Assembly (NCBI RefSeq): GCF_003855095.1
Contig: NZ_CP033972.1
Location: 4,216,001-4,280,000 of the forward strand
Direction of reading: 5' to 3'
Source: Gordonia insulae
GTDB lineage: Bacteria > Actinomycetota > Actinomycetes > Mycobacteriales > Mycobacteriaceae
Length of the DNA stretch: 64,000 nt
Part shown: piece after piece, positions 30,556 to 47,634 of the stretch
Position numbering within the stretch: position 1 is the stretch's first letter
How the letters are laid out: the number at the start of each line of letters is the position of its first letter
Notes under the pieces: model-generated
Databases searched by the model: none
What the model saw: only the letters and a program-made list of their open reading frames with translations
Told to the model about the DNA's origin: nothing
Program-made: the position numbers and the translations under genes

Positions 30556-30669
30556 GACCACCAGGCTTCCGTACCCGCCGATGGAACGCCAACGAATCAT
30601 GGTGGCGGTATGCAACTTTCGGCTGAATGTCGTGATCCCGGAGATGGCTCACGTCGCCGAGAGCTATTC

Positions 30670-30682
30670 GAGAAGTGTTCTC
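30670..30682. promoter_or_regulatory. 13-bp palindrome GAGAAGTGTTCTC before the ABC operon
   Basis: A perfect dyad (GAGAA-GTG-TTCTC) in the middle of the divergent intergenic region between the DUF202 pair and the ABC binding-protein gene. Possible operator; the cognate regulator is unknown. Confidence 0.35.
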
Positions 30683-30751
30683 ATGCAACGTATTACGTCG
30701 CAATCCTTGAGTGCTCGGCGCAGCCTTCCTGGACGCGCACCGCGCTGACCT

Positions 30752-30763
30752 GGTGGCTTAACC
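30752..30763 (+). promoter_or_regulatory. GGTGGCTTAACC, variant of the putative GntR motif
   Basis: Matches GGTGGCGTAAC in ten of eleven positions and lies 54 bp before the binding-protein start, a distance like that before FGE. If functional it would place the ABC importer in the sulfatase regulon. Confidence 0.35.
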
Positions 30764-30816
30764 GTGCTGCAACGGTGGTTCGTTCAGATGTAACAGTTGG
30801 CTCCGAGTCTTGTGTC

Positions 30817-32301: not shown

Positions 32302-32342
32302 CCGGCCGACCTCACCATCCACGTTCCTCCCGACCCGCGTTC

Positions 32343-32390
32343 GACCCCTGAACCCGACCTCTGACCCCTGACCTCTGACCCCTGACCTCC
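32343..32390 (+). repeat. Short tandem repeat of a 14-bp unit (ACCTCTGACCCCTG)
   Basis: Two perfect copies at 32357-32370 and 32371-32384 with partial copies on each side, in the 106-bp gap between the binding-protein and permease genes. Replication slippage could vary the spacer length. Confidence 0.8.
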
Positions 32391-32407
32391 GTGAAAGGAG
32401 AATGCAC

Positions 32408-33328: not shown

Positions 33329-34203
33329 CGACCGCAGACATCACCAACCGGCCGCACACCACGACGAGGACTGACACCATGACAACCACCGATTCCGGCG
33401 TCGTCACCGACGTCAAAGCCACATCCGACATCCCCGTGTACAGCACCGGCGCCGGCGCGGGCGTGATCCTCGATCATCTCCAGCTGGGGTTTGACGGCAA
33501 GATCGCCGCGAACGTCACGCTGGACATCGAACCCGGTGAGGTCGTCGTGTTCCTGGGGCCGTCGGGCTGCGGCAAGTCGACCATCCTGCGAGCTCTTGCC
33601 GGTCTGCTCGCACCGATGGGTGGTGCGGCCACGGTGAACGGACAGGCCATCACCGGGAACGACGCACACTGCGCCATGGTGTTCCAGGAGGACGCCCTCT
33701 TCCCGTGGCGAACGGCCCTCAAGAACGTGCAGTTCCCGCTCGCGCTGCGCGGTGTCCGGGGACGGGAATCGAAGCGCGTGGCAACCGAGTACCTGGAGCA
33801 GGTCGGCCTCGGCGGCTACCTCGACCACCTGCCCAGCCACCTGTCCGGTGGCATGCGCCAGCGCGTGCAATTGGCCCGCACCCTCGCCTGCGAACCGAAG
33901 GTCATGCTCATGGACGAGCCGTTCGGCGCACTCGACGCGCAGACCCGCCTGGACATGCAGCAGCTGCTGATCTCGGTCTGGGAGCAGACCAAGATGACGA
34001 TCCTGTTCGTCACGCACGACGTCGACGAGGCCCTGCTGCTCGCCGATCGCGTCGTCCTCCTGACCCACCGGCCGGCCACTGTCGCCGACGTCATCACCAT
34101 CGATCGACCTCGCGATCCGCAGGCGCCGTTCGATGACGCCTACCAGCATCGCCGGCAGTCGATCCTGGAGTTCCTCGGGCACTCACCCGTGGGCGCGCAC
34201 TGA
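33325..34203 (+). CDS. ABC transporter ATP-binding protein (SsuB/TauB type)
   Basis: A 292-residue ATPase with Walker A GPSGCGKST (about 78-86), a Q-loop in VFQEDALFPWRT, the signature LSGGMRQR, Walker B VMLMDEPFGALDAQTR and the switch His in THDVDEALLLADR. It couples to the permease by a 4-bp overlap. The first 45 residues are an unusual Thr-rich extension; an internal ATG (residue 19, MTTTDSG) could be the real start. The three-gene cluster would import a sulfonate, sulfate-ester-like or other small oxyanion compound. Confidence 0.9.
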   Translation: MTTADITNRPHTTTRTDTMTTTDSGVVTDVKATSDIPVYSTGAGAGVILDHLQLGFDGKIAANVTLDIEPGEVVVFLGPSGCGKSTILRALAGLLAPMGGAATVNGQAITGNDAHCAMVFQEDALFPWRTALKNVQFPLALRGVRGRESKRVATEYLEQVGLGGYLDHLPSHLSGGMRQRVQLARTLACEPKVMLMDEPFGALDAQTRLDMQQLLISVWEQTKMTILFVTHDVDEALLLADRVVLLTHRPATVADVITIDRPRDPQAPFDDAYQHRRQSILEFLGHSPVGAH

Positions 34204-34316: not shown

Positions 34317-34859
34317 ATGGATGGAGTCGATGTCATCGTGTCGCACTGGGCCGTCGCACGTCCCGAGCTCGACGTTTCGGCGCTCAAGGTCTTCGGACGT
34401 CTGCACCGCAGCTTCCTCGTCTACCGCGCGCGCATCGCGTCGACCTTCGAGGAACACAACATCACCGAATCCGGATTCGATGTACTGGCGTGTCTGCGTC
34501 GTGCGGTGCCGGATCACCGGCTGACCGCCGGTCAGCTCGCCGAACAGACACTGGTGACCACCGGCGGATTGTCGTTGAGGGTCAAGCGCCTCGAAGATGC
34601 CGGCCTCGTCACCCGTGCCAAGGACGCGCACGACGCCCGCGTCGTCTACGTCGAACTCACTCCGGAGGGTGCCGCGCTCGTCGATCGCATCGCCGACGAG
34701 CATTTCGCGAAGCTCCAGACGATGCTTGCCGGGTTGTCCGAGGACGAGGCCGTCGAGCTCGCGCAGTTGCTCGGCACGTTGGAGCGTTCGGCGCGTTCGG
34801 CGATGCTCGGTGACGGACTGGATCCCGGCGAATCGGACCCGATCACCGCCGGCGGGTAA
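34317..34859 (+). CDS. MarR-family transcriptional regulator
   Basis: A 180-residue regulator with the MarR winged helix: LTAGQLAEQTLVTTGGLSLRVKRLEDAGLVTRAKDAHDARVVYVELTPEGAALVDRI. Helices at both ends would form the dimer interface. It is transcribed toward the 15-gene catabolic operon, whose promoter has a strong dyad 120 bp after this gene, so it is the likely pathway-specific repressor. A TAACCT hexamer lies 9 nt before the ATG. Confidence 0.9.
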   Translation: MDGVDVIVSHWAVARPELDVSALKVFGRLHRSFLVYRARIASTFEEHNITESGFDVLACLRRAVPDHRLTAGQLAEQTLVTTGGLSLRVKRLEDAGLVTRAKDAHDARVVYVELTPEGAALVDRIADEHFAKLQTMLAGLSEDEAVELAQLLGTLERSARSAMLGDGLDPGESDPITAGG

Positions 34860-34978: not shown

Positions 34979-35007
34979 TTGACCTCTTAGCGCTAAGACA
35001 TTAGAAC
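34979..35007 (+). promoter_or_regulatory. Promoter of the catabolic operon, TTGACC-17-TAGAAC
   Basis: A -35 hexamer TTGACC (34979-34984) and -10 hexamer TAGAAC (35002-35007) are spaced by 17 bp, close to the housekeeping consensus and unusually clear for this GC content. The aldehyde dehydrogenase start lies 76 bp after the -10. Confidence 0.7.
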
Positions 35008-35018
35008 TGTCTTAGCGC
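34986..35018. promoter_or_regulatory. Dyad operator(s), probable MarR binding site
   Basis: GCGCTAAGACA (34990-35000) and its perfect complement TGTCTTAGCGC (35008-35018) flank the -10 hexamer; the left arm also forms the 12-bp palindrome CTTAGCGCTAAG (34986-34997). A protein bound here would cover the -10 region and block transcription. Confidence 0.75.
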
Positions 35019-35082
35019 AAAGATAAATGTTTCGGAGCGCGGAACCAGTCGAAGAAGCTTCCCGTCGGAACGGACACCACGC

Positions 35083-36621
35083 ATGTCGCTCGTCGCGAAT
35101 ACCCCGTACGCCTCAGACCTCGCGTCGCAGGGCATCGATACCGGTATCGACCTCGTCGATCGCATCTGCGTCGCCGGCCGTTGGGAGATCGGCACCGGGG
35201 ACCTGATCGAGTCGGTGGACCCCGCTACCGGCCACATCTTCGCGACCCTGCACGGCGCAACGCCCGAGACCGTCGACACCGCAGTGCGCGAGGGGCTTTC
35301 GGCCGCGACCACGAGCGGCTGGGCCACGATGCTCCCGCACGAACGGGCGGCCGTTCTGCATCGGATCGGCAATGCGATCGACGCCTCTCGCGAGCGGATC
35401 GCTGCGCTGCAGACCCTCGACACCGGCAAGACCCTCGCGGAGACCCGCGCCCTTGCGTCCAGTGCTGCCAACACCTTTCGCTACATGGCGGCAGCGCTGG
35501 AGACGATGGACGGCGCGCTGACGACGCCGCGTGGACCGTGGATGACGATGTCGACGCATCGGCCGATGGGAGTGGTCGGGGCCATCACCCCGTGGAACTC
35601 GCCCATCGCCTCCGATGCACAAAAACTCGCACCGGCACTTGCCGCCGGCAACGCCGTGGTCAGCAAGCCTCCGATGTGGGCACCGTGGGTGACGCTGTTG
35701 CTGGCCCGACTCTGTGAGGAGGCGGGTCTGCCGCGTGGAGTGCTGTCGGTCCTGCCCGGCCCCGGACGCAGCGTCGGTGAGGCGCTCGTCCGGCATCCGC
35801 TGGTCGCCAAGGTCAGCTTCACGGGCGGCACCACCACCGGCCGTCATCTCGCGCACGTCGCCGCGGACAAGCTGATGCCGATCACCCTGGAACTCGGCGG
35901 CAAGTCGCCGACCATCGTCTTCGACGACGCCGACATCGAACGAGCCTTGCAGGGTGTGTTGTTCGGCATCTTCTCGTCGAGTGGCCAGAGCTGCATCGCC
36001 GGATCCCGGATCTTCGTGCATCGCAGCATCGCCGACGCGTTCACCGACGAGTTGGTGGCGCGTGCCGGGCGACTGCGACTGGGCGTCGGCACCGATCCGG
36101 CCACCGATGTGGCGCCGATGATCGCCGCCGCACATCGTGATTCGGTCGCCGCCATGGTCGACGACGCCGTCGCCGCCGGAGCCCGAGTGCGTTGCGGCGG
36201 AGCGATTCCCGACGATCCGCGGCTCGCGGCGGGTACTTACTACCCACCCACCATCCTCACCGACGTCACCAACGCCGACACCATCTGTCGCGACGAGGTG
36301 TTCGGACCCGTCGCCGTGGTCATCCCGTTCGACGACGAGGCCGACGTCATTGCGCAGGCCAACGACACCGTCTACGGGCTCGCCTGCGGCATCTGGACCG
36401 AGGACTACCGGCGAGCACTGCGTGTCGGGGAAGCCATCCATGCCGGGACGGTCTGGGTCAACACCTACAAGCAGTTCTCCATCTCCACCCCGTTCACCGG
36501 GCTGCGCGACAGCGGACTCGGCATCGAGAAGGGGCGCGACGCCGTCCGACAGTACGCCGACCAGAAGAGCTTCTATCTCGATCTCAGCGACTCCCCCCTC
36601 GCCTGGGGATCGCCCCGGTAG
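35083..36621 (+). CDS. NAD(P)+-dependent aldehyde dehydrogenase
   Basis: A 512-residue ALDH, first gene of the catabolic operon. The catalytic base E270 is in ITLELGGKSP and the nucleophile C304 in SSGQSCIAGSR; the nucleotide site includes TPWNSP and SFTGGTTTGR. The C-terminal NTYKQFSISTPFTGLRDSGLG is close to that of betaine- and hydroxymuconic-semialdehyde dehydrogenases. In this context it may oxidise a semialdehyde produced after ring cleavage, or an aldehyde from the ThDP enzyme. The start ATG at 35083 lies 76 bp after the -10 of the operon promoter. Confidence 0.92.
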   Translation: MSLVANTPYASDLASQGIDTGIDLVDRICVAGRWEIGTGDLIESVDPATGHIFATLHGATPETVDTAVREGLSAATTSGWATMLPHERAAVLHRIGNAIDASRERIAALQTLDTGKTLAETRALASSAANTFRYMAAALETMDGALTTPRGPWMTMSTHRPMGVVGAITPWNSPIASDAQKLAPALAAGNAVVSKPPMWAPWVTLLLARLCEEAGLPRGVLSVLPGPGRSVGEALVRHPLVAKVSFTGGTTTGRHLAHVAADKLMPITLELGGKSPTIVFDDADIERALQGVLFGIFSSSGQSCIAGSRIFVHRSIADAFTDELVARAGRLRLGVGTDPATDVAPMIAAAHRDSVAAMVDDAVAAGARVRCGGAIPDDPRLAAGTYYPPTILTDVTNADTICRDEVFGPVAVVIPFDDEADVIAQANDTVYGLACGIWTEDYRRALRVGEAIHAGTVWVNTYKQFSISTPFTGLRDSGLGIEKGRDAVRQYADQKSFYLDLSDSPLAWGSPR

Positions 36622-36692
36622 CCACCGGCCCGGACCCGGTAACCGACATCCAGAGCATCCAACCACCCCATCAAATCGAAAGGACGTCACAC

Positions 36693-37061
36693 ATGACCAT
36701 CGCCGTCGACGCGGACCATCGCGCAGCGCATCCCTACAGCCCCGCCTTCGCGGTGGCCGGATTCGGATTCGTTTCCGGCGCACTGTCAGTCGACCAGAGC
36801 GGGCACGCCGTGGACGGGGTCGAGCCGGCGTTCGACGCCGCGATCGCCCGGCTCGCCGAGCGTCTCGCGACGATTGACATGACTCTCGCCGACGTCGTCA
36901 AGACCACCTACTTCGTGACCGACGTCTCGCTGCGGGACGCGGCAAACCGTCACTACGAGAAAATCTTCGACGATCCGCGGCCGGCTCGGTCGTTCGTCGA
37001 GGTCGCAGCGCTCCCGTACGGCGCAACCGTCGAAATCGAAGCCATCGCGCACGCCGCCTGA
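36693..37061 (+). CDS. RidA (YjgF/YER057c/UK114) family enamine/imine deaminase
   Basis: A 122-residue RidA protein. The conserved arginine that binds the carboxylate of imine substrates is present in PARSFVEVAALPYGATVEIEAIA. The start at 36693 has GAAAGGA upstream, one of three near-identical leaders in this operon (also before 37099 and 37653). Catabolic RidA proteins such as 2-aminomuconate deaminase or RutC hydrolyse nitrogen-bearing intermediates, which hints that the pathway handles an amino or N-heterocyclic compound. A second, altered copy is at 45886. Confidence 0.88.
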   Translation: MTIAVDADHRAAHPYSPAFAVAGFGFVSGALSVDQSGHAVDGVEPAFDAAIARLAERLATIDMTLADVVKTTYFVTDVSLRDAANRHYEKIFDDPRPARSFVEVAALPYGATVEIEAIAHAA

Positions 37062-37098
37062 CCCCCGACAGATACAACCCACCCGAAAGGACGTCATC

Positions 37099-37617
37099 AT
37101 GACCGCACCGGAGAAGACCACCGTGGACCTCGACCAGCAGATCGACGCCTGCATCGCGAGCCGCGACACCCGCTACGAGGACTGGGACACCCTCGGATTC
37201 CAGGCCGCCAAGGGCGGAGATCGATTCAAGCGCGCGCAGATCCGCTATATCGGATCGGGTGCCACCGGCAACCATGACGGCGACAACCGCACGCTGCCGT
37301 CCGAGCACTTCACCTTCTCGAACATGCGCCTGCCAGCCGGCGCGGTCGGACCCGAGCACACGCACCACGACGTGGAGGAAGTGTTCTTCGTCCTCGAGGG
37401 CGAGCTCGAGGTGGCCGTCCACGACGTCGAGGACGGCACCAAAAAGGCGGTGCGCCGCCTCGGATACCGCGACCTCATCCGCGTGCCGGCCGGTGTGCCG
37501 CGCAGTCTCGCCAACGTCGGGGACACCGACGCGCTGTTCTGCGTGATCATCGGCGCCCCGAAGCCCCAGCTGCCCACCTACCCGCCCAGCTCGGAGATGT
37601 ACGGCGTCACCCGCTGA
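37099..37617 (+). CDS. Cupin-domain protein
   Basis: A 172-residue single-domain cupin. Motif 1 is GPEHTHHDVEEVFFVLEGELEV, with two His and a Glu that usually bind a metal, and motif 2 is RVPAGVPRSLANVGD, in which the usual final His of the motif is replaced. It could be a dioxygenase, an isomerase or a small-molecule binding protein; none can be chosen from sequence. Leader CGAAAGGACGTCATC is almost the same as that of the RidA gene. Confidence 0.85.
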   Translation: MTAPEKTTVDLDQQIDACIASRDTRYEDWDTLGFQAAKGGDRFKRAQIRYIGSGATGNHDGDNRTLPSEHFTFSNMRLPAGAVGPEHTHHDVEEVFFVLEGELEVAVHDVEDGTKKAVRRLGYRDLIRVPAGVPRSLANVGDTDALFCVIIGAPKPQLPTYPPSSEMYGVTR

Positions 37618-37652
37618 CCCGTCACCCGACCGACCGGAAAGGATCGCCACCG

Positions 37653-38621
37653 ATGTCCGCAGCGCACACGAGCTCAGACACGTCGAGAATCCTTCGCGTC
37701 CAGCAGAAGACGTGGGAGGCCGACGGCATCACCAGCGTCACCTTCGTCGATCCGACCGGGGCCCCGCTGCCGAGTTGGGACCCGGGTGCTCATGTCGCGC
37801 TACACCTTCCGGGCGGACTGATCCGCGAGTACTCCCTCTGCTCGGACCCGCGCGACACGGCACGCTGGACGGTCGCCGTGCTCCGCGCCGAGCAATCGAG
37901 GGGTGGCAGCACGCTCGTCCACGACCGGCTGTCGGTCGGCGCCGAGATCCGGATCGACGGTCCCCGCAACGCATTCGCACTGGAACCTGACGCGACGGAG
38001 CATGTGCTGGTCGCCGGCGGTGTCGGCATCACCCCGATCGTGGCGATGATGCGCAGACTGCAGGACAGCGGGAGTCGCTGGCGGATGCTCTACGCCGGCC
38101 GGTCACGCCGGACGATGGCCTTCGTCGACGAGGTGACCGCCCACGGTGACGTCGTGACGATCCACGCCGACGACGAGGTGGGCGGCCTACCCGACCTGGA
38201 GGCCGCAGTCGGTGTCGCGCAGCCGGGTTCGGTGGTCTATTGCTGCGGCCCGGCGCCGCTGCTGGACGCGGTTGCCTCGGCCGTGCCGGACGGTGTCACA
38301 GTCCGTACCGAGCGGTTCTCGGCACCCGTCGCTGTCACACCCGTCGGCGACGATCCGGCCTTCGACGTCGTGCTCGAACGCAGTGGCCAACGGGTCCATG
38401 TCGCACCGGACATCTCGGTGCTCGACGCCCTCATCGACGCGGGCGTCGACGTACCGAGCTCCTGCACCGAAGGAATCTGCGGTACCTGCGAGGTGGGTGT
38501 CGTCAAAGGCGACGTCGACCACCGGGACTTCCTGCTCAGCGAGACCGAGCACGCCGCGAACACCACGATGTTCCCGTGCGTATCACGCTGCCGCTCCGCC
38601 GAACTCGTACTCGATCTCTAG
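37653..38621 (+). CDS. Phthalate-dioxygenase-reductase-type ferredoxin reductase (FMN, NAD(P)H, [2Fe-2S])
   Basis: A 322-residue electron-transfer protein. The FMN domain has REYSLCSDP, the NAD domain GGVGITPIVAMM and CCGPAPLLDAV, and a C-terminal plant-type [2Fe-2S] domain has cysteines 271, 276 and 279 (SSCTEGICGTCEVG) with a fourth near 309 (FPCVSRC). The order FMN-NAD-2Fe2S is that of phthalate dioxygenase reductase and vanillate demethylase VanB. It is the expected partner of the Rieske oxygenase at 44436, although the genes lie 6 kb apart in the operon. Confidence 0.92.
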   Translation: MSAAHTSSDTSRILRVQQKTWEADGITSVTFVDPTGAPLPSWDPGAHVALHLPGGLIREYSLCSDPRDTARWTVAVLRAEQSRGGSTLVHDRLSVGAEIRIDGPRNAFALEPDATEHVLVAGGVGITPIVAMMRRLQDSGSRWRMLYAGRSRRTMAFVDEVTAHGDVVTIHADDEVGGLPDLEAAVGVAQPGSVVYCCGPAPLLDAVASAVPDGVTVRTERFSAPVAVTPVGDDPAFDVVLERSGQRVHVAPDISVLDALIDAGVDVPSSCTEGICGTCEVGVVKGDVDHRDFLLSETEHAANTTMFPCVSRCRSAELVLDL

Positions 38622-38632
38622 AAGGAACCACC

Positions 38633-39628
38633 GTGCTCCACGCCCCGATGTCACCGCTCGCCGACGGGCCGGTCTGCCGCCTGCGCAGCCTGCGTTCGGT
38701 CGCGCTGACCGTGCCCGATCCGATCGCCTCCCGTGACTTCTACCACGAGGTCTGGGGGCTGTCGACCGTCGATGAGGACGGCGACCGATTCTGGCTGCGC
38801 GCCACCGGCACCGAACATCATGTCCTGGATCTGCGGGCCGGTGATGTGAATGCTCTGGGCCGCATCACCTTTGCGGTCGCGACTCCTCGTGAGGTGGACG
38901 ACGCGGCCCGTGTACTCGAAGCGCTGGGCATCCCGCTGCTCCGTGCGCCCGGGCCGCTCGACGACGCGGGCGGCGGATACGGCCTGCAGCTCGTCGACCC
39001 CGAGGGGCGGACGATCGAACTGTCCGCGGACACCTTCGCGGTCCCGACGGATGAGCCGGCCGGACGTCGGGCGGTGCCGCGGAAGATCGCCCACGTCGTC
39101 CTGAACACCACCGACATCGAACGCACCGCGTGGTTCTACACCCGTGTCCTCGGCATGCGTGTATCCGACTGGTCCGAACGGCAGATGGCGTTTCTGCGGT
39201 GCAACTCCGATCACCACGTCATCGCGCTCAACCAAGCGTCCTGGCCGTCGCTCAACCACATCGCGTACGAGATGACATCGATCGACCACTTCATGCGCGG
39301 CATCGGAAGTCTGCGGTCGCACGGCATCTCGCCTCAATGGGGACCCGGGCGACACGGGCCGGGCGACAACACCTTCTCGTACTTCACCGACCCCGCGGGC
39401 CTCGTCTGCGAGTACACCTCCGAGGTCGCCCAGATCGACGAGGACGCCTGGCTCTGTCGCACCTGGCGGCGCACCCCCGAGCTCTCCGATACCTGGGGGA
39501 CGGCCGGGCCGCCGAGCAGCACCATCCGGTCGGCCATGGCCGGAATCCCTGACCTCGGTGCGCGGGCGCTGGTGGCGGCGCACGAGGACTACTTCTACGG
39601 GGCGCCCGAGACGGCGGGTGTCTCATGA
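38633..39628 (+). CDS. Type I extradiol ring-cleavage dioxygenase (VOC superfamily)
   Basis: A 331-residue two-module vicinal-oxygen-chelate protein. The C-terminal module shows the iron ligands of type I extradiol enzymes: His in PRKIAHVVLNT, His in SLNHIAYEM and Glu in LVCEYTSE, with GRHGPGDNTFSYFTDPAG containing the usual second-sphere residues. It should cleave a catechol-type ring next to the hydroxyls. The GTG at 38633 has GAAGGAAC upstream. The stop overlaps the hydrolase start (ATGA), the standard pairing of meta-cleavage dioxygenase and C-C hydrolase. Confidence 0.9.
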   Translation: MLHAPMSPLADGPVCRLRSLRSVALTVPDPIASRDFYHEVWGLSTVDEDGDRFWLRATGTEHHVLDLRAGDVNALGRITFAVATPREVDDAARVLEALGIPLLRAPGPLDDAGGGYGLQLVDPEGRTIELSADTFAVPTDEPAGRRAVPRKIAHVVLNTTDIERTAWFYTRVLGMRVSDWSERQMAFLRCNSDHHVIALNQASWPSLNHIAYEMTSIDHFMRGIGSLRSHGISPQWGPGRHGPGDNTFSYFTDPAGLVCEYTSEVAQIDEDAWLCRTWRRTPELSDTWGTAGPPSSTIRSAMAGIPDLGARALVAAHEDYFYGAPETAGVS

Positions 39629-40425
39629 CCGTCGCAGCTTCCGCCGTCGACGGTCTCAACGTCGTCGAGCACCGATCGCACCGCGAGATCCGCACGGATC
39701 GGCCGGTGCTCCTACTGCACGGCATCGGCGGCTCGGCGGACTCGTGTGCGCCGCTGGCCGAGCGCCTCGCCGCGGCAGGTGTGCCGTCCTGGTGCCTCGA
39801 TGCGCCCGGGTACGGCAGGTCCGCCGATCCGATGCCCGGCGTCGACGTGGTCGCCGCGGTCATCGATCTGATCGAGCGCACGTGGCCGGCGCAACCCGTC
39901 ACTCTCCTCGGTACGTCGTGGGGTGGTGTCGTGGCCATCGCGGTCGCCCTCCGCCGCCCCGAGATCGTTGCCGCACTCGTCCTGGCCGACAGCACCCGCG
40001 GGTCAGGCACCACCGCCGGGAAGGCCGACGCCATGCTCGCCCGGATCGCCGAACTCCGCGAACGTGGTGCCGACGCCGTTGCGGCCGAACGCGCCCCGCG
40101 GCTGACCGCCCCCGGAGCGGCACCCATCGTGTGCCAAACAGTACGTCGATCGATGGCGGACATCCGGATTCCCGGTTTCACCGCGGCAGCAGAGTTCATG
40201 GCGACCACCGACCACGGCCCGGACCTGGCGCGGGTCGACTGCCCGACGCTGGTCCTCGTCGGCGAGCACGACGTGATCACCGGCGTCGACGAGTCGCGGG
40301 CGCTCGCGAACGGTATCCGCGGTGCGCAGTTGCACATCATCGGCGCCGCGGGCCACGTGGCCGTCCAGGAGCGGCCCGACACCGTCGCCGATCTCGTCCT
40401 CGAGTTCCTCGGTGGTCTGTCATGA
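39625..40425 (+). CDS. Alpha/beta hydrolase, probable meta-cleavage-product C-C hydrolase
   Basis: A 266-residue hydrolase with LLLHGIGGSADS (oxyanion), the nucleophile elbow GTSWGG (Ser), the acid in LVLVGEHDVITG and the His in GAAGHVAVQERP. It is coupled to the extradiol dioxygenase before it and to the SDR after it by ATGA overlaps, which supports hydrolysis of the ring-fission product. An ester or lactone hydrolase is the alternative. Confidence 0.87.
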   Translation: MTVAASAVDGLNVVEHRSHREIRTDRPVLLLHGIGGSADSCAPLAERLAAAGVPSWCLDAPGYGRSADPMPGVDVVAAVIDLIERTWPAQPVTLLGTSWGGVVAIAVALRRPEIVAALVLADSTRGSGTTAGKADAMLARIAELRERGADAVAAERAPRLTAPGAAPIVCQTVRRSMADIRIPGFTAAAEFMATTDHGPDLARVDCPTLVLVGEHDVITGVDESRALANGIRGAQLHIIGAAGHVAVQERPDTVADLVLEFLGGLS

Positions 40426-41165
40426 CCCCCGGCACCATCGTGGTCACCGGCGGCGGACGCGGCCTCGGCCGCAGCATCGCCGAACGCTGTTGCCGCGAGG
40501 GACACCGCGTCGTCATCGCCGAGCGCGACCCCGATACCGCCCACGCCGCCGAGCGCGACCTCCTCGTCGCCGGGCACGACGCCACCGCGATCGTCACCGA
40601 CATCGCCCACATCGGGTCGGTGCGGGCACTCGCGGACCGCCTCGACGCAGACGGCCACCGGGTCGTCGGCCTCGTCAACAACGCCGCCATCGCCGACGGA
40701 GTCGGTGGTGCAACCTTCTTCGACCTCGCCGATGACGAGTTCGACCGGCTGTCCACCGTGAACGTCCGCGGCACCTGGTCGGTGACCAAATATCTGTGGC
40801 CCATGCTGTCCGCCGCGCAGGGCTCGGTGGTGAACATCGCCTCCGACGTCGCGCTGTACGGGTCACCCCGCCTGGTGCACTACGTGTCGTCGAAGGCTGC
40901 GGTCATCGGCATGACACGTTCGATGGCGCGCGACGCGGGCGAGTTCGGCGTGCGCGTCAACGCAGTCGCGCCCGGGCTGATCCGGGTCGAGGCGACCGAA
41001 TCCGTACCCGACGAGCGGTATCGCACCTACGCCGAGGGCCGGGCTCTCAAACGCGAACAGACACCCGAGGACGTCGCCGGGGTGGTGCGGTTCCTGCTCT
41101 CCGACGATGCCGCATTCGTCACCGGCCAGACCATCGTCGTCGACGGCGGCTTCATCTTCCGCTGA
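40422..41165 (+). CDS. Short-chain dehydrogenase/reductase (complete catalytic set)
   Basis: A 247-residue SDR with the cofactor loop TGGGRGLG, NNAA, the Ser in NIASDVALYG and the YxxxK motif in HYVSSKAA, ending in the usual FVTGQTIVVDGG. It may oxidise a dihydrodiol or reduce a ketone. The Asp or Glu after strand 2 (AERDP) suggests NAD(H) preference. It overlaps the hydrolase by 4 bp. Confidence 0.9.
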   Translation: MTPGTIVVTGGGRGLGRSIAERCCREGHRVVIAERDPDTAHAAERDLLVAGHDATAIVTDIAHIGSVRALADRLDADGHRVVGLVNNAAIADGVGGATFFDLADDEFDRLSTVNVRGTWSVTKYLWPMLSAAQGSVVNIASDVALYGSPRLVHYVSSKAAVIGMTRSMARDAGEFGVRVNAVAPGLIRVEATESVPDERYRTYAEGRALKREQTPEDVAGVVRFLLSDDAAFVTGQTIVVDGGFIFR

Positions 41166-41209
41166 CCGACTCACGCCACCACCACACACCACCACACGAG
41201 GAGAACGCC

Positions 41210-41992
41210 ATGGATCTGCAGCTCGACGGCCGCCGGATTCTGATCACCGGTGCGAGCTCCGGGATCGGACTCGCCACGGCGCGGCTGCTCGCGGAGGAAG
41301 GGGCGCGCCTCGCCCTGTGCGCACGCGATGTTCAGCGGCTGCGTTCCGCCACCGAGGAACTGGCCGCAGTCACCGACGTCGTCACGGCGGCGTGCGATGT
41401 CACCGACCGGTCCTCGGTGGACGACTTCGTCGACTCGGCGGTCGACCGACTCGGCGGTCTCGACGGCGTGGTCTGCAACGCGGGCCGGTCGCTGATGCGC
41501 ACCCTCGACGAGACCAGCGACGAGGAGATCCGGGACGAGTTCGACCTCAAGATCTTCGGCGCCCTCAACGTGGTCAGGGCAGCACGCCCCGCGCTGGCCA
41601 AGTCCGATGCCGGGTCGATCGTGGTCGTCAACGCAATCCTCTCCCGCCAGCCAGAGCTCCGGCTCGCGATCACCGCTGCCGCACGGGCCGGGCTGCTCAA
41701 CCTGTCCAGGTCGCTCGCCGGAGACCTCGCCGTCGACGGGATCCGGGTGAACTCGGTCCTGCTCGGGCTCGTCGACACCGGACAGTGGCAGCGGCGCTTC
41801 GTGGAGAGCGGTTCGCCCGCCGACTTCGACGAATGGAGCGCGGAGATCGCCCACGACCGCGGAATAGCGTTGGGCCGCTTCGGCACCGCCGACGAACTCG
41901 CCTTCCCGGTGACCACACTGCTGTCCCCACGAAACAGCTACATGACCGGCGCAGCCCTCGACGTCGGTGGCGGTGTCCACCGCTACGCCTGA
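41210..41992 (+). CDS. SDR-fold protein lacking the catalytic YxxxK motif
   Basis: A 260-residue SDR. The Rossmann start is intact (TGASSGIGLATARL, CARD, CNAG), but where Ser, Tyr and Lys are expected the sequence reads VVNAILSRQPELRLAITAAARAG, with no YxxxK. The C-terminal SPRNSYMTGAALDVGGG is normal. Known relatives with an AARAG segment also miss the motif, so this may be a defined subgroup with a different reaction or a binding role. It has its own GAGGAG ribosome site 45 bp after the previous SDR. Confidence 0.85.
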   Translation: MDLQLDGRRILITGASSGIGLATARLLAEEGARLALCARDVQRLRSATEELAAVTDVVTAACDVTDRSSVDDFVDSAVDRLGGLDGVVCNAGRSLMRTLDETSDEEIRDEFDLKIFGALNVVRAARPALAKSDAGSIVVVNAILSRQPELRLAITAAARAGLLNLSRSLAGDLAVDGIRVNSVLLGLVDTGQWQRRFVESGSPADFDEWSAEIAHDRGIALGRFGTADELAFPVTTLLSPRNSYMTGAALDVGGGVHRYA

Positions 41993-42021
41993 CACCGACG
42001 ACCATCCCTCAGGAGACCACC

Positions 42022-43716
42022 ATGACCACCCAGCCCGAGTCCCACCGCCAGACCGGCGGCGACGTCCTCGTGGAGGTGATGCGCCGCCACGGCATCACCA
42101 CCGCATTCGGCGTCGTCAGCATCCACAACCTGCCACTGGTCGAGGCTGTCGACCGCGACCTCACCTTTGTCGAGATGCGACACGAGGCCGCCGCGGTCAA
42201 CGCCGCCGACGGGTTCGCGCGAGCGTCCGGCGGGATCGGGATCGCGTTGACGAGCACCGGAACCGGAGCGGGCAACGCGGCCGGATCGATGGTCGAGGCA
42301 CTGACCGCAGGGAGTCGCGTCCTGCACATCACCGGACAGATCGAGAGCGAGCACCTGGCACCGGGGCGCCCCGCCGCGAGTCGCGGCGTGATCCACGAGT
42401 TCCCGCGCCAACCACAGATGCTCGACGCGATCTCCGCGTACTCCGCGACGATCCGCGACGCGAAAGAAGCCGGGGCCGAACTGGAAGCAGCGATCGCGCG
42501 GGTTCTGGCCGCTCCTTCGGGCCCGGCCAGCGTCGAGTGGCCCACCGATCTGCAGTACCTTGCCTCTCCCGATCAGCAGCGCCCATCCGAGTCGGCACCG
42601 CGACCCGTCCCGAGCGTCGACGCCGACTCCGTCGCCTGCGCAGCGGATCTCCTCCGTACTGCCAGGTCGCCGCTGATCTGGCTCGGTGGGGGTGCGGCGG
42701 GTGCGGGCGTGGCCATCGGCGAACTCGCACACCGTCTGGGCGCGGGCATCCTCACCAGCAACTCCGGCCGGGGCATCGTGGACGAGGACGATCCGCTGGT
42801 GATCGGCAACTTCGCCACCACACCCGCCGCCCGCGAACTGATCGCCGACGCCGACGTCCTGCTGGCGATCGGTACGCATTTCCGCTCCAATGAGACGGCC
42901 TCGTACAGCCTTCCGTTGCCCGCGAATCTGATCCAGATCGACGTTGTGCCGGCGACCATCGGCCGGGTCTATCCGGCCACCGTCGGTGTCCTCGGCGACG
43001 CCGGTGAGTCGGTGCGTGCCATCGCCGCGCACCTCGACACCGGAACCGCCGAACCCGGATGGCGCGACCGGGTCACCGAGGTTCGCGGCGTCGTACGCCG
43101 CCAACTGACCTCGTACATCGGCGGCTACGCGGAGATCTGCGAGGCGATCCGCACCGCCGTGCCCGCCCGGTCGGTCATCGCCCGCGACGTCACCATCCCG
43201 TCGAGTCAGTGGGGTAACCGCCTGTTGCCCATCCACGAGCAGGCGACCAACGTGTTCCCTCTCGGCGGCGGGATCGGGCAGGGGCTGGCCATGGGTATCG
43301 GCGCCGCGCATGCCCGCCCCGACGTTCCGACGCTGGTCATGGCCGGCGACGGCGGCCTGGCCGTCCACCTCGGTGAACTGGCCTCCCTCGCCGGCTCCGG
43401 AGCACATGTGATCGTGCTGGTGTTCAACGACGGCGGATACGGAGTTCTGCGAAACATGCAGGAAAAGAACGGATTCCGTCGATCCGGAGTTGACCTGCAC
43501 ACCCCCCGCTTCGATCTGCTCGCGGCGTCGATGGATCTGCCGTACCGACTCGTCCAGGGCCCCGGATCCATATCCGCCGCACTCGACCAGGCCGTCGGTC
43601 GGCGGGGGCCATCGGTCATCGAGGTCGACGTCGAAGCGCTGGACCCGGTGCCGGGACCGTTCGTGCCGCCGGTGCACGTGCCCACCGCAGATCACCAGAA
43701 CGGTGGACGGTCGTGA
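42022..43716 (+). CDS. ThDP-dependent enzyme (acetolactate synthase/benzoylformate decarboxylase family)
   Basis: A 564-residue three-domain ThDP enzyme. E55 in VEMRHEAAAVNAADGFAR activates the cofactor; the central domain follows near 190-330; the ThDP/Mg motif is GDGGLAVHLGELASLAGSGA to FNDGGYG, the GDG...N pattern. FPLGGGIGQGLAMGIGAA is typical of the decarboxylase branch. No FAD-binding signature of true acetolactate synthases is obvious. In the operon it probably decarboxylates or ligates a 2-oxo acid from ring fission, giving an aldehyde for the ALDH. The start at 42022 has AGGAG upstream. Confidence 0.88.
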   Translation: MTTQPESHRQTGGDVLVEVMRRHGITTAFGVVSIHNLPLVEAVDRDLTFVEMRHEAAAVNAADGFARASGGIGIALTSTGTGAGNAAGSMVEALTAGSRVLHITGQIESEHLAPGRPAASRGVIHEFPRQPQMLDAISAYSATIRDAKEAGAELEAAIARVLAAPSGPASVEWPTDLQYLASPDQQRPSESAPRPVPSVDADSVACAADLLRTARSPLIWLGGGAAGAGVAIGELAHRLGAGILTSNSGRGIVDEDDPLVIGNFATTPAARELIADADVLLAIGTHFRSNETASYSLPLPANLIQIDVVPATIGRVYPATVGVLGDAGESVRAIAAHLDTGTAEPGWRDRVTEVRGVVRRQLTSYIGGYAEICEAIRTAVPARSVIARDVTIPSSQWGNRLLPIHEQATNVFPLGGGIGQGLAMGIGAAHARPDVPTLVMAGDGGLAVHLGELASLAGSGAHVIVLVFNDGGYGVLRNMQEKNGFRRSGVDLHTPRFDLLAASMDLPYRLVQGPGSISAALDQAVGRRGPSVIEVDVEALDPVPGPFVPPVHVPTADHQNGGRS

Positions 43717-44168
43717 TCGCCCCGAAGCTCTGGTGGGACGACGGCGCCCTCGCCGCCGTGGCGGCGGGCGAGCAGACTCACGTCTTCGCCGCCGGGGACC
43801 ACGTTGCCGACGCCATCCGGCTCGCGGTAGCGCACCCCGAGGTCGTGTTGAGTCTTGTACTGGCCGAGCCGGTTCCGGTGCCTGACGACGTCGTCCCGTT
43901 GCTCGCACAGGTCGTCGTACCGACTCTCGTCCTGGCGTCGGCGCCATCATCTGACGCGGATCTCACTGCCGCCCAAAAGCTCGCGGGTGAGATCGACAAC
44001 GGCGTGTTCGTCGTCATCGATGGTGCGCCGCGACCGGTCCACACCGAACGGCGGGAGTCGTTCGCCGAGTGGTCCGCATCCTTCGTCGCCATCGCCGAAG
44101 GTCTGGCCGCCCGCGACGGGCGCCTGCTCACCCCACCCACCCCACTCATCGAAGGAGCTCTCCGATGA
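43713..44168 (+). CDS. Short alpha/beta-hydrolase-like protein without a nucleophile elbow
   Basis: A 151-residue protein that reads like the last half of an alpha/beta hydrolase: LVLAEPVPVPDD, then the strand PTLVLASAP where the catalytic acid usually follows, and VVIDGAPRPVHTERRESFAEW. The GxSxG elbow of a full hydrolase is absent, so catalysis is unlikely. It is coupled to the ThDP enzyme (GTGA) and to the small protein after it (ATGA), so it is maintained as an operon member and may be structural or regulatory. Confidence 0.65.
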   Translation: MIAPKLWWDDGALAAVAAGEQTHVFAAGDHVADAIRLAVAHPEVVLSLVLAEPVPVPDDVVPLLAQVVVPTLVLASAPSSDADLTAAQKLAGEIDNGVFVVIDGAPRPVHTERRESFAEWSASFVAIAEGLAARDGRLLTPPTPLIEGALR

Positions 44169-44434
44169 ACACTCGCACAGCGAAATTCCCTGTCGATGCG
44201 CTCGGCCGGGCGACGTTCCGCGAGCCCTATCTCGAGACGCATCAGACCCACCCGGAACCGATCACACCCTACGAGGACAAGCTCGCCGGCTCGTTGTCCG
44301 AGGTGTTCGCCGACGGTGCAACGACTCTCGACGATGTGGTCGACGGCCTGAATGCCCTGGGACTGCACGGACCCGATGGTGGCCCGTGGACCGACGAGAC
44401 CTTCCGCGCCGAGATGCGCAGATTGGGGAAATGA
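44165..44434 (+). CDS. Small protein with recombinase-like helix-turn-helix domain
   Basis: An 89-residue protein (TPYEDKLAGSLSEVFADGATTLDDVVDGLNAL...PWTDETFRAEMRRLG). The second half resembles the recombinase-like helix-turn-helix found next to Rieske oxygenases, where the phrase GPDGGPWTxExFxxEMxxLG is common. In that setting it is unlikely to recombine DNA; it may bind the oxygenase. It overlaps the gene before it and is separated from the Rieske gene by 1 bp. Confidence 0.75.
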   Translation: MNTRTAKFPVDALGRATFREPYLETHQTHPEPITPYEDKLAGSLSEVFADGATTLDDVVDGLNALGLHGPDGGPWTDETFRAEMRRLGK

Positions 44435-44435
44435 C

Positions 44436-45542
44436 ATGACCACCACCGAAACCCGCACCACGCCCCGGCCGACACCACGAGGACGACCGACCTTCGCCGT
44501 GGGCACCCGGCGTCACCTGGACGCCGACGAGATCGCCGCCACCGGTCTGCGCGACCGCTGGTACCCGATCCTGCCGTCGCACATGGTCGAGGCCGGGGCG
44601 ATGGTCCCGGTCCGGCGTCTCGAGGTCGACTGGGTGCTGTTTCGAGACGCCCATGGCGTTGTGCACATGCTCGAGGACCGCTGCCCGCATCGCAGCGCAC
44701 CCCTGTCGGTGGGTCAGCACCTCGGCGATCGGATTGCATGCGCCTACCACGGTGTCCAGGTGGATGGCGGCGGCACCGTGGTCTCCGTTCCCGGGATGCC
44801 GGGCTGCGCACTCGAAGGGCGGCGCGCGACGGCCTCGCTCGAGGTCGTCGAGGCCGCCGACACCATATTCGCCTATATCCCGCTGACCGCGGACTCGGTG
44901 CCCACGCCGTTCGTGCTCCCGGACCGGCTCTCCGATCCGGAGGTCTCGTGGTTTCCCAACTTCGCGGAATGGGCCGGACCGTGGCGGTTCTACATGGACA
45001 ATGTGCTCGACCCGATGCACGGCGCATTCCTGCATCGCAATTCGCACTCGATGTTCGGAGGTGACACCTCCGCTCGATTCCGCATCCGCGAGACCGACCG
45101 CGGGTTCTTCTTCGAGAAGACCGATCAGTGCGGCGTGAACTTCGACTGGGTCGAGTTCGTACGCGGTTCCATGGATTACGTCGATCTGGAGATCCCGTAC
45201 GGACCCGCCGCCGGTCCCGGCGGGGTGTTCGGCATCGTCGGGATGAGCACACCCATCGACTGCTCGACGTCGGCGATCTTCCACTGGCGTACCCGTCGAG
45301 TCAGCGGATGGGAACGCGAGGCCTGGCGGTTCCTCTACCGGACACGGCTCGAGGAGAAGCACTGGGAGGTGCTCGAGCAGGACCGCCTCGTCCTCGAGGT
45401 GCTGGCGAACGACGCCGATCGCGAGGAGCACCTGTACCAACACGATCTCGGAGTGTCCCGCATCCGGCGCATCTATCGGGCCGATGCCGTCGCGCAGGCC
45501 GCCGCTCTCGCCGCGGCGAACGGTGCGGGGTTGGCGACGTGA
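44436..45542 (+). CDS. Rieske non-heme iron oxygenase, alpha subunit
   Basis: A 368-residue aromatic-ring oxygenase of the VanA/LigXa-like monooxygenase or demethylase group. Rieske cluster ligands are C83 and H85 (RCPHRS) and C102 and H105 (CAYHG). The catalytic iron site is around residue 190 in MDNVLDPMHGAFLHR, giving the two His and the bridging Asp. No beta-subunit gene is present, which agrees with the homo-oligomeric demethylase/monooxygenase class. Electrons should come from the reductase at 37653. The stop overlaps the next gene (GTGA). Confidence 0.92.
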   Translation: MTTTETRTTPRPTPRGRPTFAVGTRRHLDADEIAATGLRDRWYPILPSHMVEAGAMVPVRRLEVDWVLFRDAHGVVHMLEDRCPHRSAPLSVGQHLGDRIACAYHGVQVDGGGTVVSVPGMPGCALEGRRATASLEVVEAADTIFAYIPLTADSVPTPFVLPDRLSDPEVSWFPNFAEWAGPWRFYMDNVLDPMHGAFLHRNSHSMFGGDTSARFRIRETDRGFFFEKTDQCGVNFDWVEFVRGSMDYVDLEIPYGPAAGPGGVFGIVGMSTPIDCSTSAIFHWRTRRVSGWEREAWRFLYRTRLEEKHWEVLEQDRLVLEVLANDADREEHLYQHDLGVSRIRRIYRADAVAQAAALAAANGAGLAT

Positions 45543-45889
45543 GCGGCATCGACGGTGGTATGGACGACACGATGCTGCTGACGGTGGTTCTGCGGCATGA
45601 CCAGTCGCAGAATCTCGCGCAGCTACAGGGCCGGCTCGACGAGAACGACTGGTGGCACGGCTTCCCTCCCGAGGGCTGCGAGATCGTGTCGTGGGTCGTC
45701 GCGATGGGGCTGGGGCAGGTAGTCACGCTGCGCCTGCCCGCCGATCGACTGGCCGCCGTCAACGTGGAACTCGAGCGCCGCGCCTGGGGCACGTTTCAGA
45801 CGGACTTCTACCCGACGTACGACTTCGCCCCGGTCCGCGTGCGGCTCACCGAGGAGTCCGATGCACGACGCGCTGTGAGGGCGTCATGA
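45539..45889 (+). CDS. 116-residue hypothetical protein of the catabolic operon
   Basis: Begins MSGIDGGMDDTMLLTVVLRH and has a predicted alternating alpha/beta pattern (MLLTVVLRHDQSQNLAQLQ, VSWVVAMGLGQVVTLRLP, LAAVNVELERRAWG) like a ferredoxin-like/muconolactone-isomerase-type small fold, but I cannot name a family. GTG at 45539 overlaps the Rieske stop and its own stop overlaps the RidA start, so it is firmly part of the operon. Confidence 0.7.
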   Translation: MSGIDGGMDDTMLLTVVLRHDQSQNLAQLQGRLDENDWWHGFPPEGCEIVSWVVAMGLGQVVTLRLPADRLAAVNVELERRAWGTFQTDFYPTYDFAPVRVRLTEESDARRAVRAS

Positions 45890-46305
45890 CCCGGGTGGTC
45901 GAGCCCACCGTCGCGGAACCGCCACGACGGGACATGTTCAGCAACGCCCGAATCGTCGGCGGTCAGTTCTTCCTCTCGGGAATGCACGCGGGTGGGCCGT
46001 CGGGACCCGGTGCCGCCGCCGACACCCACGCGCAGGCCGTCGAGGCCTTCCGCCGTATGCGGGCGCTCACCGAAGCGTGTGGCGCCACCGTCGACGACAT
46101 CGTCGTCCTGCGCATCTACCTCACCGACATCGACGACAGATCCGCTGTCGGCCGCGCCCGGAGCGCGGTCTTCTCCGGCGATTTCCCGTGCTCGACCCTC
46201 GTCGAGGTGTCGGCCCTGGTGGAGCCGGGCCTCACCGTCGAGGTCGAAGCCCAGGGGTTTCTCCCCACGGCCGATCACCCCGGCCGGCCTTTCACCGCCC
46301 AGTAG
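45886..46305 (+). CDS. RidA-family protein lacking the catalytic arginine
   Basis: A 139-residue RidA-like protein (NARIVGGQFFLSGMHAG, VVLRIYLTDIDDR, VEVSALVEPGLTVEVEAQGF). At the site where active RidA proteins have ARSxVEV, this one reads CSTLVEV, so the substrate-binding arginine is replaced by serine. It probably acts on a different ligand from the copy at 36693, or pairs with it. It overlaps the preceding gene by 4 bp. Confidence 0.85.
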   Translation: MTRVVEPTVAEPPRRDMFSNARIVGGQFFLSGMHAGGPSGPGAAADTHAQAVEAFRRMRALTEACGATVDDIVVLRIYLTDIDDRSAVGRARSAVFSGDFPCSTLVEVSALVEPGLTVEVEAQGFLPTADHPGRPFTAQ

Positions 46306-46353
46306 AATCATCCACACGGCGTCAGCCACGCCGACAACCACAAGGACGCCATC

Positions 46354-47634
46354 ATGAGCGGACCGCGCATGAGTTCCCCTCCCGTCAGCAGCCCGGATGC
46401 CATCACCCGGCCCAACTGGCCGGTACTGATCCTGGCCTTCGTCGCCGTCGTGCTCGACGGCTACGACACCATCGCCCTCGGGCTGTCTGTGCCCGCGCTG
46501 GCCGACGACTGGGGTGTCCCGGCCTCCCACTTCACTCCTGCCCTCTCGCTGACCAGCCTCGGCGTCGCCCTCGGTTACATCGCGGTCGGGCGCCTCACCG
46601 CGCGCTTCGGCTGCCGGCACGTGGTGCTGGTCGCTGTCGCGGTGTTCACCGTCGGCTGCCTGCTCACCGCATGGGCGGGCTCGATCCTCGAGCTGAGCGC
46701 GCTGCGGTTGATCACCGGATTCGGGCTCGGCGCGGTGATGCCCGCTGCCGTTGCGCAGGCCACCGCCCTCAATCCGGCGCGGTATCGACAATCGATCGCC
46801 GTCTTCGTGACGATGGGTATCTCGCTGGGCGCGCTCATCGCCGGAGTGTTCGGCAGCCAGGTGATCGGGACGTTCGGCTGGCCGGCCGTCTTCATCGTCG
46901 GCGCCGCCGCCTCGGCCCTGCTGTTGCCGTTCTTGTGGGTCTGGCTACCCGATGAACGTGCGGTGACCCGGTCGACGATCGCGCCTGCCGACGCCAAACA
47001 CCATGCCTCGGTTGCGCGACTCTTCGATCCGGCGGTCCGGACCCGCACGATTCTGTTGTGGGGCTTCGCGTTCCTGGTGTTCTCGGTCTACTACATCTTC
47101 TCGTCGTGGCTGCCTACGCTGCTCACCAGTTACGGGTTCAGCACCGGCCTCGCCCCACTCGGCTCGGCCGCACTCGGGGTGGGCAGCATCATCGGCGCGG
47201 GCGTACTCATGGTGGGGGCGTTGCGCTTCCGGATGACGTCGGTGCTCGCGGGAACCACCGCGGTCGCCATCGTGTTCCTCGTGCTGTCCGCGTTTCTCGG
47301 TGCAGACAAGGCCCTGTTACTCCTGGTGTTCGGTGGTGTCGGGCTCGGCCTGCAGGCGGGGATGATCGGGCAGGCCGCCGTCGCGGTGTCGCTCTACCCA
47401 CAGGCGACCGCGGCCACCGGCGTGGGCTGGACGTCGTCGATGGGCCGTCTGGGATCCGTTGTCGGGCCGATCGTCGGAGGAGCGCTCATCGGCCTCGGGA
47501 TGTCCACCAGTGCGATCGTGCTGATCGCCTGCGTGCCGGTGGCTGCGGCACTGGTGCTCATCGTCGCGCTCGGACGGACGGCGACCCGACGCAGCCCGTC
47601 TCCGGCGGCGGAGCCGGTCCCGGCCGCTTCGTAG
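46354..47634 (+). CDS. MFS transporter of the aromatic acid:H+ symporter (AAHS) type
   Basis: A 426-residue protein with 12 membrane segments. The AAHS mark in the first helix is VVLDGYDTIALGLSVPAL (compare DGFD in PcaK and BenK), with the loop 2-3 motif GRLTARFGCR and the loop 8-9 region. It is the last gene of the operon (49 bp after RidA) and points to import of an aromatic acid as pathway substrate. It converges on fadD36 with 42 bp between the stops. Confidence 0.9.
   Translation: MSGPRMSSPPVSSPDAITRPNWPVLILAFVAVVLDGYDTIALGLSVPALADDWGVPASHFTPALSLTSLGVALGYIAVGRLTARFGCRHVVLVAVAVFTVGCLLTAWAGSILELSALRLITGFGLGAVMPAAVAQATALNPARYRQSIAVFVTMGISLGALIAGVFGSQVIGTFGWPAVFIVGAAASALLLPFLWVWLPDERAVTRSTIAPADAKHHASVARLFDPAVRTRTILLWGFAFLVFSVYYIFSSWLPTLLTSYGFSTGLAPLGSAALGVGSIIGAGVLMVGALRFRMTSVLAGTTAVAIVFLVLSAFLGADKALLLLVFGGVGLGLQAGMIGQAAVAVSLYPQATAATGVGWTSSMGRLGSVVGPIVGGALIGLGMSTSAIVLIACVPVAAALVLIVALGRTATRRSPSPAAEPVPAAS

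Follow-up and report, generated by a model that had tools for sequence, protein, structure and literature searches.

A fifteen-gene operon of Gordonia insulae as a candidate gene set for kynurenate degradation through the quinoline pathway

Kynurenate is a neuroactive and immune-active end product of tryptophan, whose breakdown chemistry in bacteria has been known for about 60 years. The so-called quinoline pathway, worked out by the biochemistry of the 1960s in Pseudomonas fluorescens and P. acidovorans and defined by activities, proceeds from kynurenate through a 7,8-dihydrodiol to 7,8-dihydroxykynurenate, followed by extradiol cleavage at the 8,8a bond, reduction of the enone, loss of CO2 from a 2-oxo acid and oxidation of the aldehyde, which yields 5-(2-carboxyethyl)-4,6-dihydroxypicolinate. 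D. acidovorans is a classical kynurenate degrader. According to the available text of a 2024 review, which cites only a 1961 paper for it, pseudomonads convert kynurenate to glutamate, alanine and acids (PMC11354673). Here we describe an operon of 15 genes at positions 35083-47634 of a 64,000-nucleotide stretch (hereafter, the window) of the genome of the soil bacterium Gordonia insulae, a single contig of 5.96 Mb, together with its relatives in other bacteria.

We put at about 50% the probability that this operon encodes every step for degrading a 4-hydroxyquinoline-2-carboxylic acid, with kynurenate as the most likely substrate, along the old quinoline pathway. The fit is based on the fact that the operon supplies candidates for two dioxygenases, one acting on the ring and one of the extradiol type, for the dehydrogenase of a dihydrodiol, for an enone reductase, for a decarboxylase of the thiamine diphosphate (ThDP) type and for an aldehyde dehydrogenase (ALDH), and that the pathway needs no hydratase/aldolase pair, of which no family was found among the 15 genes by searches of the operon proteins. 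A preliminary description of the locus held that its gene set fits no nameable pathway, a statement that is not supported, as the kynurenate route fits well. The substrate, every reaction and the order of the steps are what we infer from the observed genes, their order and conservation, their catalytic residues and the exchange of two nitrogen-handling genes. Among the open-access literature matches listed, which leave subscription papers aside, neither genes for kynurenate breakdown nor a compound for this gene set, or for an orthologous operon, were found.

Organization of the operon and its putative regulation

The 15 plus-strand genes encode, in order, ALDH, RidA1, a cupin, a reductase, the extradiol dioxygenase (EDO), an alpha/beta hydrolase, two short-chain dehydrogenases (SDR1 and SDR2), the ThDP enzyme, the protein g10, an HTH_62 protein, the Rieske oxygenase, the protein g13, RidA2 and a transporter of the major facilitator superfamily (MFS). 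All the genes first described are present on one strand, each with a third-position GC between 0.77 and 0.90, and the family calls made at that stage were upheld by Pfam and NCBIfam searches. Neighbouring genes overlap by 4 bp at five of the 14 junctions (EDO/hydrolase, hydrolase/SDR1, ThDP/g10, g10/HTH_62 and g13/RidA2) and are separated by gaps of 1-71 bp at the remaining nine, with the start of the EDO gene corrected to the GTG at 38633. The operon is no chance grouping, its order being kept in genomes of the same genus and its core being common to two phyla.

A genome scan with a Rieske profile brought up at least 578 relatives, of which the best 80 were kept. These 80 genome contigs and 6 plasmid records gave 86 loci, of which 20 shorter than 18 kb were left out and 66 were counted. 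Each locus spans about 10 kb on either side of the Rieske gene, present in all 66 by choice of the set, and absence of a gene means that it does not lie within the locus. The features of the operon are the following:

35083..36621, plus strand: g01, ALDH (PF00171; 60 of the 66 loci), proposed to oxidize a side-chain aldehyde to the acid
36693..37061, plus strand: g02, RidA1 (PF01042), proposed to hydrolyse aminofumarate/iminosuccinate in place of aspartate dehydrogenase
37099..37617, plus strand: g03, cupin (PF07883; 61 loci), with a proposed late role in ring opening
37653..38621, plus strand: g04, PDR/VanB-type reductase serving the Rieske oxygenase (PF00111, PF00175)
38633..39628, plus strand: g05, VOC-type EDO with GTG start (PF00903)
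39625..40425, plus strand: g06, PcaD/MhpC-like alpha/beta hydrolase (PF00561), proposed to open a pyridone ring or perform a retro-Claisen cleavage
40422..41165, plus strand: g07, SDR1 (PF13561), proposed cis-dihydrodiol dehydrogenase
41210..41992, plus strand: g08, SDR2, atypical SDR of the PRK07062 family without YxxxK (NF005468, above cut-off), proposed to reduce an enone side chain
42022..43716, plus strand: g09, ThDP enzyme of the PRK07064 family (NF005470, above cut-off), proposed 2-oxo-acid decarboxylase
43713..44168, plus strand: g10, 151-aa protein of no family (12 loci, all actinobacterial)
44165..44434, plus strand: g11, small HTH_62 protein (PF20552), directly 5' of the Rieske gene
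44436..45542, plus strand: g12, Rieske oxygenase (PF00355, PF19112), proposed to dihydroxylate the ring at 7,8
45560..45889, plus strand: g13, 109-aa protein with ferredoxin-like fold and no sequence family (model pLDDT 93), partner gene of RidA2
45886..46305, plus strand: g14, RidA2 (PF01042)
46354..47634, plus strand: g15, AAHS-type MFS importer (PF07690; TIGR00895 below cut-off)

The catalytic residues of most of these enzymes are strongly conserved, as counted on sequences past length and coverage filters only. In the EDO, the 2-His-1-Glu triad His154, His209 and Glu260 and the second-shell residues His195, His241 and Tyr250 are kept in at least 97% of 84 sequences, as are Ser98, Asp216 and His244 of the alpha/beta hydrolase (84 sequences) and Glu55 of the ThDP enzyme (85 sequences), which also carries the GDG...N motif. 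The Rieske-cluster and iron-site residues of the oxygenase are invariant in the 10 aligned sequences, and SDR1 shows Ser141, Tyr154 and Lys158 in 67/67. Two proteins depart from their families. The YxxxK dyad is absent from SDR2, where Thr155, Ala158 and Arg159 are found in 84/84 relatives, while the cupin retains His87 and His89 in 80/80 and carries Arg135 at the usual position of the third metal histidine in 78/80. Since both features are conserved, SDR2 and the cupin are predicted to carry out, in all relatives, reactions other than the textbook ones. The best solved relative of SDR2 is 3lf1/3lf2 (192 bits), that is Q9HYA2, which we take to be a P. aeruginosa protein with an 'atypical catalytic center', and that of the EDO is the dioxygenase-like 3b59 (222 bits); the structure listing states no pathway for either. 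In NCBIfam, g09 scores 643 bits against PRK07064 (cut-off 495) and g08 scores 315 bits against PRK07062 (cut-off 266). The nearest named families of the ThDP enzyme are 2-oxo-acid lyases and decarboxylases, the second-best including 5-guanidino-2-oxopentanoate decarboxylase.

As for the small proteins, HTH_62 directly precedes the Rieske gene in 90/93 cases, which suggests that it may work together with the oxygenase; structure comparison gave no useful match for it. The predicted model of g13 adopts a ferredoxin-like fold, for which the structure search returned nothing below E 0.001 and muconolactone-isomerase-type entries at E 0.004-0.014. The protein g10 shows a faint likeness to the C-terminal part of the operon hydrolase g06 (blastp E 6e-4), with the nucleophile half missing.

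The operon is preceded by a regulatory gene, part of the same system, and by a promoter region with the following elements:

34317..34859, plus strand: MarR-family regulator (Pfam MarR), adjoining the cluster in 28 of the 34 long loci from Actinomycetota
34979..35007, plus strand: promoter TTGACC-17 bp-TAGAAC
34985..34998, no strand assigned: putative operator 1, the palindrome TCTTAGCGCTAAGA, inside the -35/-10 spacer
35010..35023, no strand assigned: putative operator 2, TCTTAGCGCAAAGA, directly 3' of the -10 element

The upstream-region comparison, from which both operators derive, shows that the one clear promoter first recognized in this operon and two MarR-type TCTTAGCGC sites are kept in 9/9 upstream regions (Gordonia, Williamsia and Rhodococcus loci, the window counted); the sole deviation noted is a single base change in the first TCTTAGCGC site of a locus from another genome of the genus (L023). 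The sequence TTAGCGCTAA occurs once in the whole window, at putative operator 1. The MarR protein is likely the repressor of the operon and would control its promoter, and repression lifted by the substrate is the natural reading of this promoter/operator layout.

Upstream of the MarR gene lie NitT/TauT-type ABC transporter genes (30424-34203), whose binding-protein reading frame is unusually long (625 aa). They are probably outside the system, because their counterpart is missing upstream of MarR in 4/4 relatives whose sequence extends 3.7-8.6 kb in that direction. ABC matches of similar type occur in 19 of the 66 other loci.

Distribution of the cluster and the exchange of nitrogen-handling genes

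The operon belongs to a widespread cross-phylum catabolic cluster of at least ten linked genes, so that the finding reaches further than first described. The 66 loci are drawn from Actinomycetota and from Alpha-, Beta- and Gammaproteobacteria. HTH_62 is found in all of them, the hydrolase and the ThDP enzyme in 64 each, the EDO in 63, SDR2 in 62, the cupin in 61 and ALDH in 60; the PDR-type reductase follows with 57, aspartate dehydrogenase (AspDH) with 54, SDR1 with 51, g13 with 31 and RidA2 with 28, and less common are an FAD monooxygenase (17), g10 (12), RidA1 (11), an FAD reductase (5) and a ferredoxin (3). The PDR reductase never occurs together with the ferredoxin/FAD reductase (0/66, neither being found in 4), as expected for interchangeable electron supply. 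Moreover, g13 and RidA2 form a linked pair across phyla (both in 28 loci, only one in 3, neither in 35).

The 80 genome loci so retained, out of at least 578, come among others from Gordonia, Williamsia, Rhodococcus, Nocardia, Geodermatophilus, Janibacter and Streptomyces, and on the proteobacterial side from Herbaspirillum, Pandoraea, Pseudomonas, Variovorax and genomes of Alphaproteobacteria. Of the 28 plasmid records with the ThDP gene, 26 have the Rieske gene within about 11 kb, and the carriers include Caballeronia, Burkholderia, Cupriavidus, Novosphingobium, Paracoccus, Klebsiella and Acinetobacter; a close Rieske relative is present in Comamonas. In the genus of the window the Rieske gene occurs in 14/59 genomes. 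The identical 15-gene order is present in two same-genus genomes (L019 and L020), and in a third (L018) 13 of the genes can be followed before the contig ends. A rearranged version with a divergent MarR gene is found in two more genomes of the genus (L021, L022) and in two from a different family within the class (L024, L025). Clustering of the flanking genes returned transporters, porins and regulators, with no pointer to the substrate.

Some loci deviate from this pattern. A reduced operon is seen at L023 (10159-12028, same-genus genome G010), where the EDO gene runs into pieces of g13 and RidA2. A passing Rieske match is absent from this genome, which looks like the loss of the central part of the operon. 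One protein record named P. aeruginosa (P0227) is a Rieske oxygenase fused to a RidA end (432 aa), which could be a product of deletion or assembly. Finally, L033 carries at 11579-12700 a salicylate-hydroxylase-like FAD monooxygenase, of the type found in 17 clusters and possibly a second entry enzyme.

The presence of AspDH in 54 of the 66 loci strengthens the earlier idea that the substrate contains nitrogen. The identity of the enzyme was checked in three cases (Streptomyces by Pfam, Klebsiella and Acinetobacter by NCBIfam), and a genome search found no AspDH in Gordonia insulae. RidA1, which is distinct from RidA2, is present in 8 of the 12 loci without AspDH versus 3 of the 54 with it, a split that follows lineages (Fisher p 1e-5, uncorrected for kinship). 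RidA proteins are known for the hydrolysis of enamines and imines. AspDH-type enzymes interconvert aspartate and oxaloacetate/iminosuccinate, and reductive amination is described for the AspDHs of K. pneumoniae and Delftia, which may not be the cluster's own genes, in the available text of one study (PMC5554190). The simplest common denominator of AspDH and RidA1 would be aminofumarate/iminosuccinate as a product of the pathway.

The kynurenate proposal and its rivals

In the proposed route, kynurenate would be taken up by the MFS importer and converted by the Rieske oxygenase and its reductase into the 7,8-cis-dihydrodiol, from which SDR1 would form 7,8-dihydroxykynurenate. The EDO would then cleave between C8 and C8a, leaving a dihydroxypicolinate ring that bears a 2-oxo-acid enone. 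Reduction of the enone by SDR2 (or the cupin), release of CO2 from the 2-oxo acid by the ThDP enzyme and oxidation of the resulting aldehyde by ALDH would lead to 5-(2-carboxyethyl)-4,6-dihydroxypicolinate. The hydrolase, possibly assisted by the cupin, would open the ring of this compound and release aminofumarate/iminosuccinate along with a diacid of five carbons. The chemistry suggested for this last step, our own extension of the pathway, is lactam hydrolysis and retro-Claisen cleavage to aminofumarate (C4, with the nitrogen) and glutarate (C5), so that ten carbons would be balanced as 5 + 4 + 1 CO2. Such a hydrolytic split would explain AspDH and RidA1: the imine would be caught by AspDH in most relatives and by RidA1 here, to give oxaloacetate and ammonia.

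At the level of families only, the operon contains the ring-hydroxylating dioxygenase and reductase that the quinoline pathway demands, the extradiol dioxygenase (PF00903, 2-His-1-Glu), and the 2-oxo-acid decarboxylase followed by ALDH, encoded in 64 and 60 of the 66 loci, respectively; SDR1, with its Ser-Tyr-Lys residues, is the candidate dihydrodiol dehydrogenase. The preliminary description is supported in part: the operon would import and degrade an aromatic acid that contains nitrogen, its enzymes would hydroxylate the ring, cleave it in the extradiol manner and oxidize an aldehyde, and the ThDP enzyme takes the place of a hydratase/aldolase. Its pairing of the EDO with a C-C hydrolase, as in classical meta-cleavage, is doubtful, given the missing hydratase/aldolase and a ThDP enzyme nearest to 2-oxo-acid lyases and decarboxylases. 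A broader formulation is more tentative and somewhat short of even odds: that the cluster comprises the genes by which bacteria of the Actinomycetota and Proteobacteria run the kynurenate (quinoline) pathway, with a previously undescribed ending, in which the hydrolase splits the pyridone ring into a C5 diacid and aminofumarate and the imine nitrogen is captured by AspDH in most lineages but set free by a RidA specialized for this purpose in Gordonia, Rhodococcus and their relatives, with an SDR without Tyr-Lys acting on the enone, and with HTH_62 as a partner of the Rieske oxygenase and not a DNA-binding protein.

Several observations weigh against kynurenate as the substrate. No tryptophan dioxygenase gene was found in 100 loci, in a search whose positive control among four such genes worked, and none is present in the Gordonia insulae genome, so kynurenate would have to be scavenged; 29 of the 45 cluster genomes examined carry the gene elsewhere, against 2 of 14 control genomes. 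CsiD, which marks one glutarate route, is above cut-off in only 3 of 44 cluster genomes, which leaves the proposed C5 product unsupported, and glutarate use via CsiD was dropped as a candidate. Kynurenate builds up to about 100 uM in rich medium in P. aeruginosa kynU mutants, according to one report, in a strain that may or may not carry the cluster (PMC4938989). In addition, the enone-reductase role of SDR2 is a guess in view of the missing dyad, SDR1 passes in only 51 of the 66 loci, AspDH and RidA1 are both present in three, and the substrate and the last steps are themselves deductions.

In view of the FAD monooxygenase of 17 loci, xanthurenate may be a further substrate or even the true one. 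Being of the salicylate/3-hydroxybenzoate hydroxylase type, it suits a compound that already carries one ring hydroxyl, and the C-terminal domain of the Rieske oxygenase matches VanA_C, a demethylase family. A route of the same type could then start from a relative of kynurenate, such as xanthurenate (8-hydroxykynurenate), 8-methoxykynurenate or another 4-hydroxyquinoline-2-carboxylate, with the Rieske enzyme hydroxylating once or demethylating; but a dihydrodiol-type dehydrogenase such as SDR1 would be superfluous, and the FAD enzyme is missing from the operon of the window, which makes this version rather unlikely. It is unlikely, if a little less so, that the substrate is some other nitrogenous aromatic or heteroaromatic acid, of the indole, pyridine or aminobenzoate type, with the nitrogen again leaving via AspDH/RidA. 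These two enzymes signal nitrogen generally and not quinolines, and RidA and ALDH also take part in the 2-aminomuconate route. Routes of that kind, however, require a decarboxylase, a hydratase and an aldolase, none of which is seen in the operon, and the Rieske enzyme of the auxin iad system has two subunits where that of the operon has one, as far as the available text of its description goes (PMC10374108). Lastly, an EDO beside an MhpC/PcaD-like hydrolase and an AAHS importer would suit an ordinary meta-cleavage of a nitrogen-free aromatic acid, the ThDP enzyme replacing the hydratase/aldolase and the RidA proteins being housekeeping; this is improbable, as it leaves unexplained the AspDH of most relatives and its exchange with RidA1, and two separate RidA types are retained.

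If the kynurenate proposal is true, a function would be assigned at once to PRK07064, PRK07062, HTH_62, one AspDH clade and one RidA clade, and kynurenate use would become predictable from the genomes of soil, plant-associated and animal-associated bacteria. Even with another substrate, a cross-phylum cluster of at least ten linked genes without an assigned compound remains noteworthy.

Comparison with described systems

With the classical meta-cleavage systems (mhp, bph, hpa) the operon shares a VOC extradiol dioxygenase and an MhpC/PcaD-related alpha/beta hydrolase, and it differs from them by the ThDP enzyme, ALDH and the nitrogen-handling enzymes. A classical pathway of this kind would also require a 2-hydroxypentadienoate hydratase and aldolase, and no such family was found among the 15 genes. 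Of the 2-aminomuconate route only ALDH and RidA are present, while aminophenol/3-hydroxyanthranilate dioxygenase, decarboxylase, hydratase and aldolase are not among the operon genes, and the route was dropped for that reason. The iad auxin operon of Variovorax, which is under MarR-type control, also employs a Rieske oxygenase and a reductase for a bicyclic nitrogenous acid. Auxin degradation was rejected, as the operon has a single Rieske gene and no beta-subunit family; in the available text on iad, by contrast, the oxygenase is the two-subunit IadD/IadE, and no extradiol or ThDP enzyme is described (PMC10374108, PMC12633357). The kynurenine cluster of A. baumannii is, from what its source makes available, a different, kynU-type cluster (PMC9162365).

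Two operon proteins, g09 and g08, belong to the NCBIfam families PRK07064 (ThDP) and PRK07062 (SDR), both without assigned function, and for each of which a function is proposed here. As to the quinoline pathway, it is known by activities and no gene was found for it in the literature searched; to our knowledge, RidA, cupin and HTH_62 proteins are not part of its description. At the level of enzyme types, the quinoline pathway of kynurenate presents the same types as those proposed for the operon, in the same order: dioxygenation, dihydrodiol dehydrogenation, extradiol cleavage, 2-oxo-acid decarboxylation and aldehyde oxidation.

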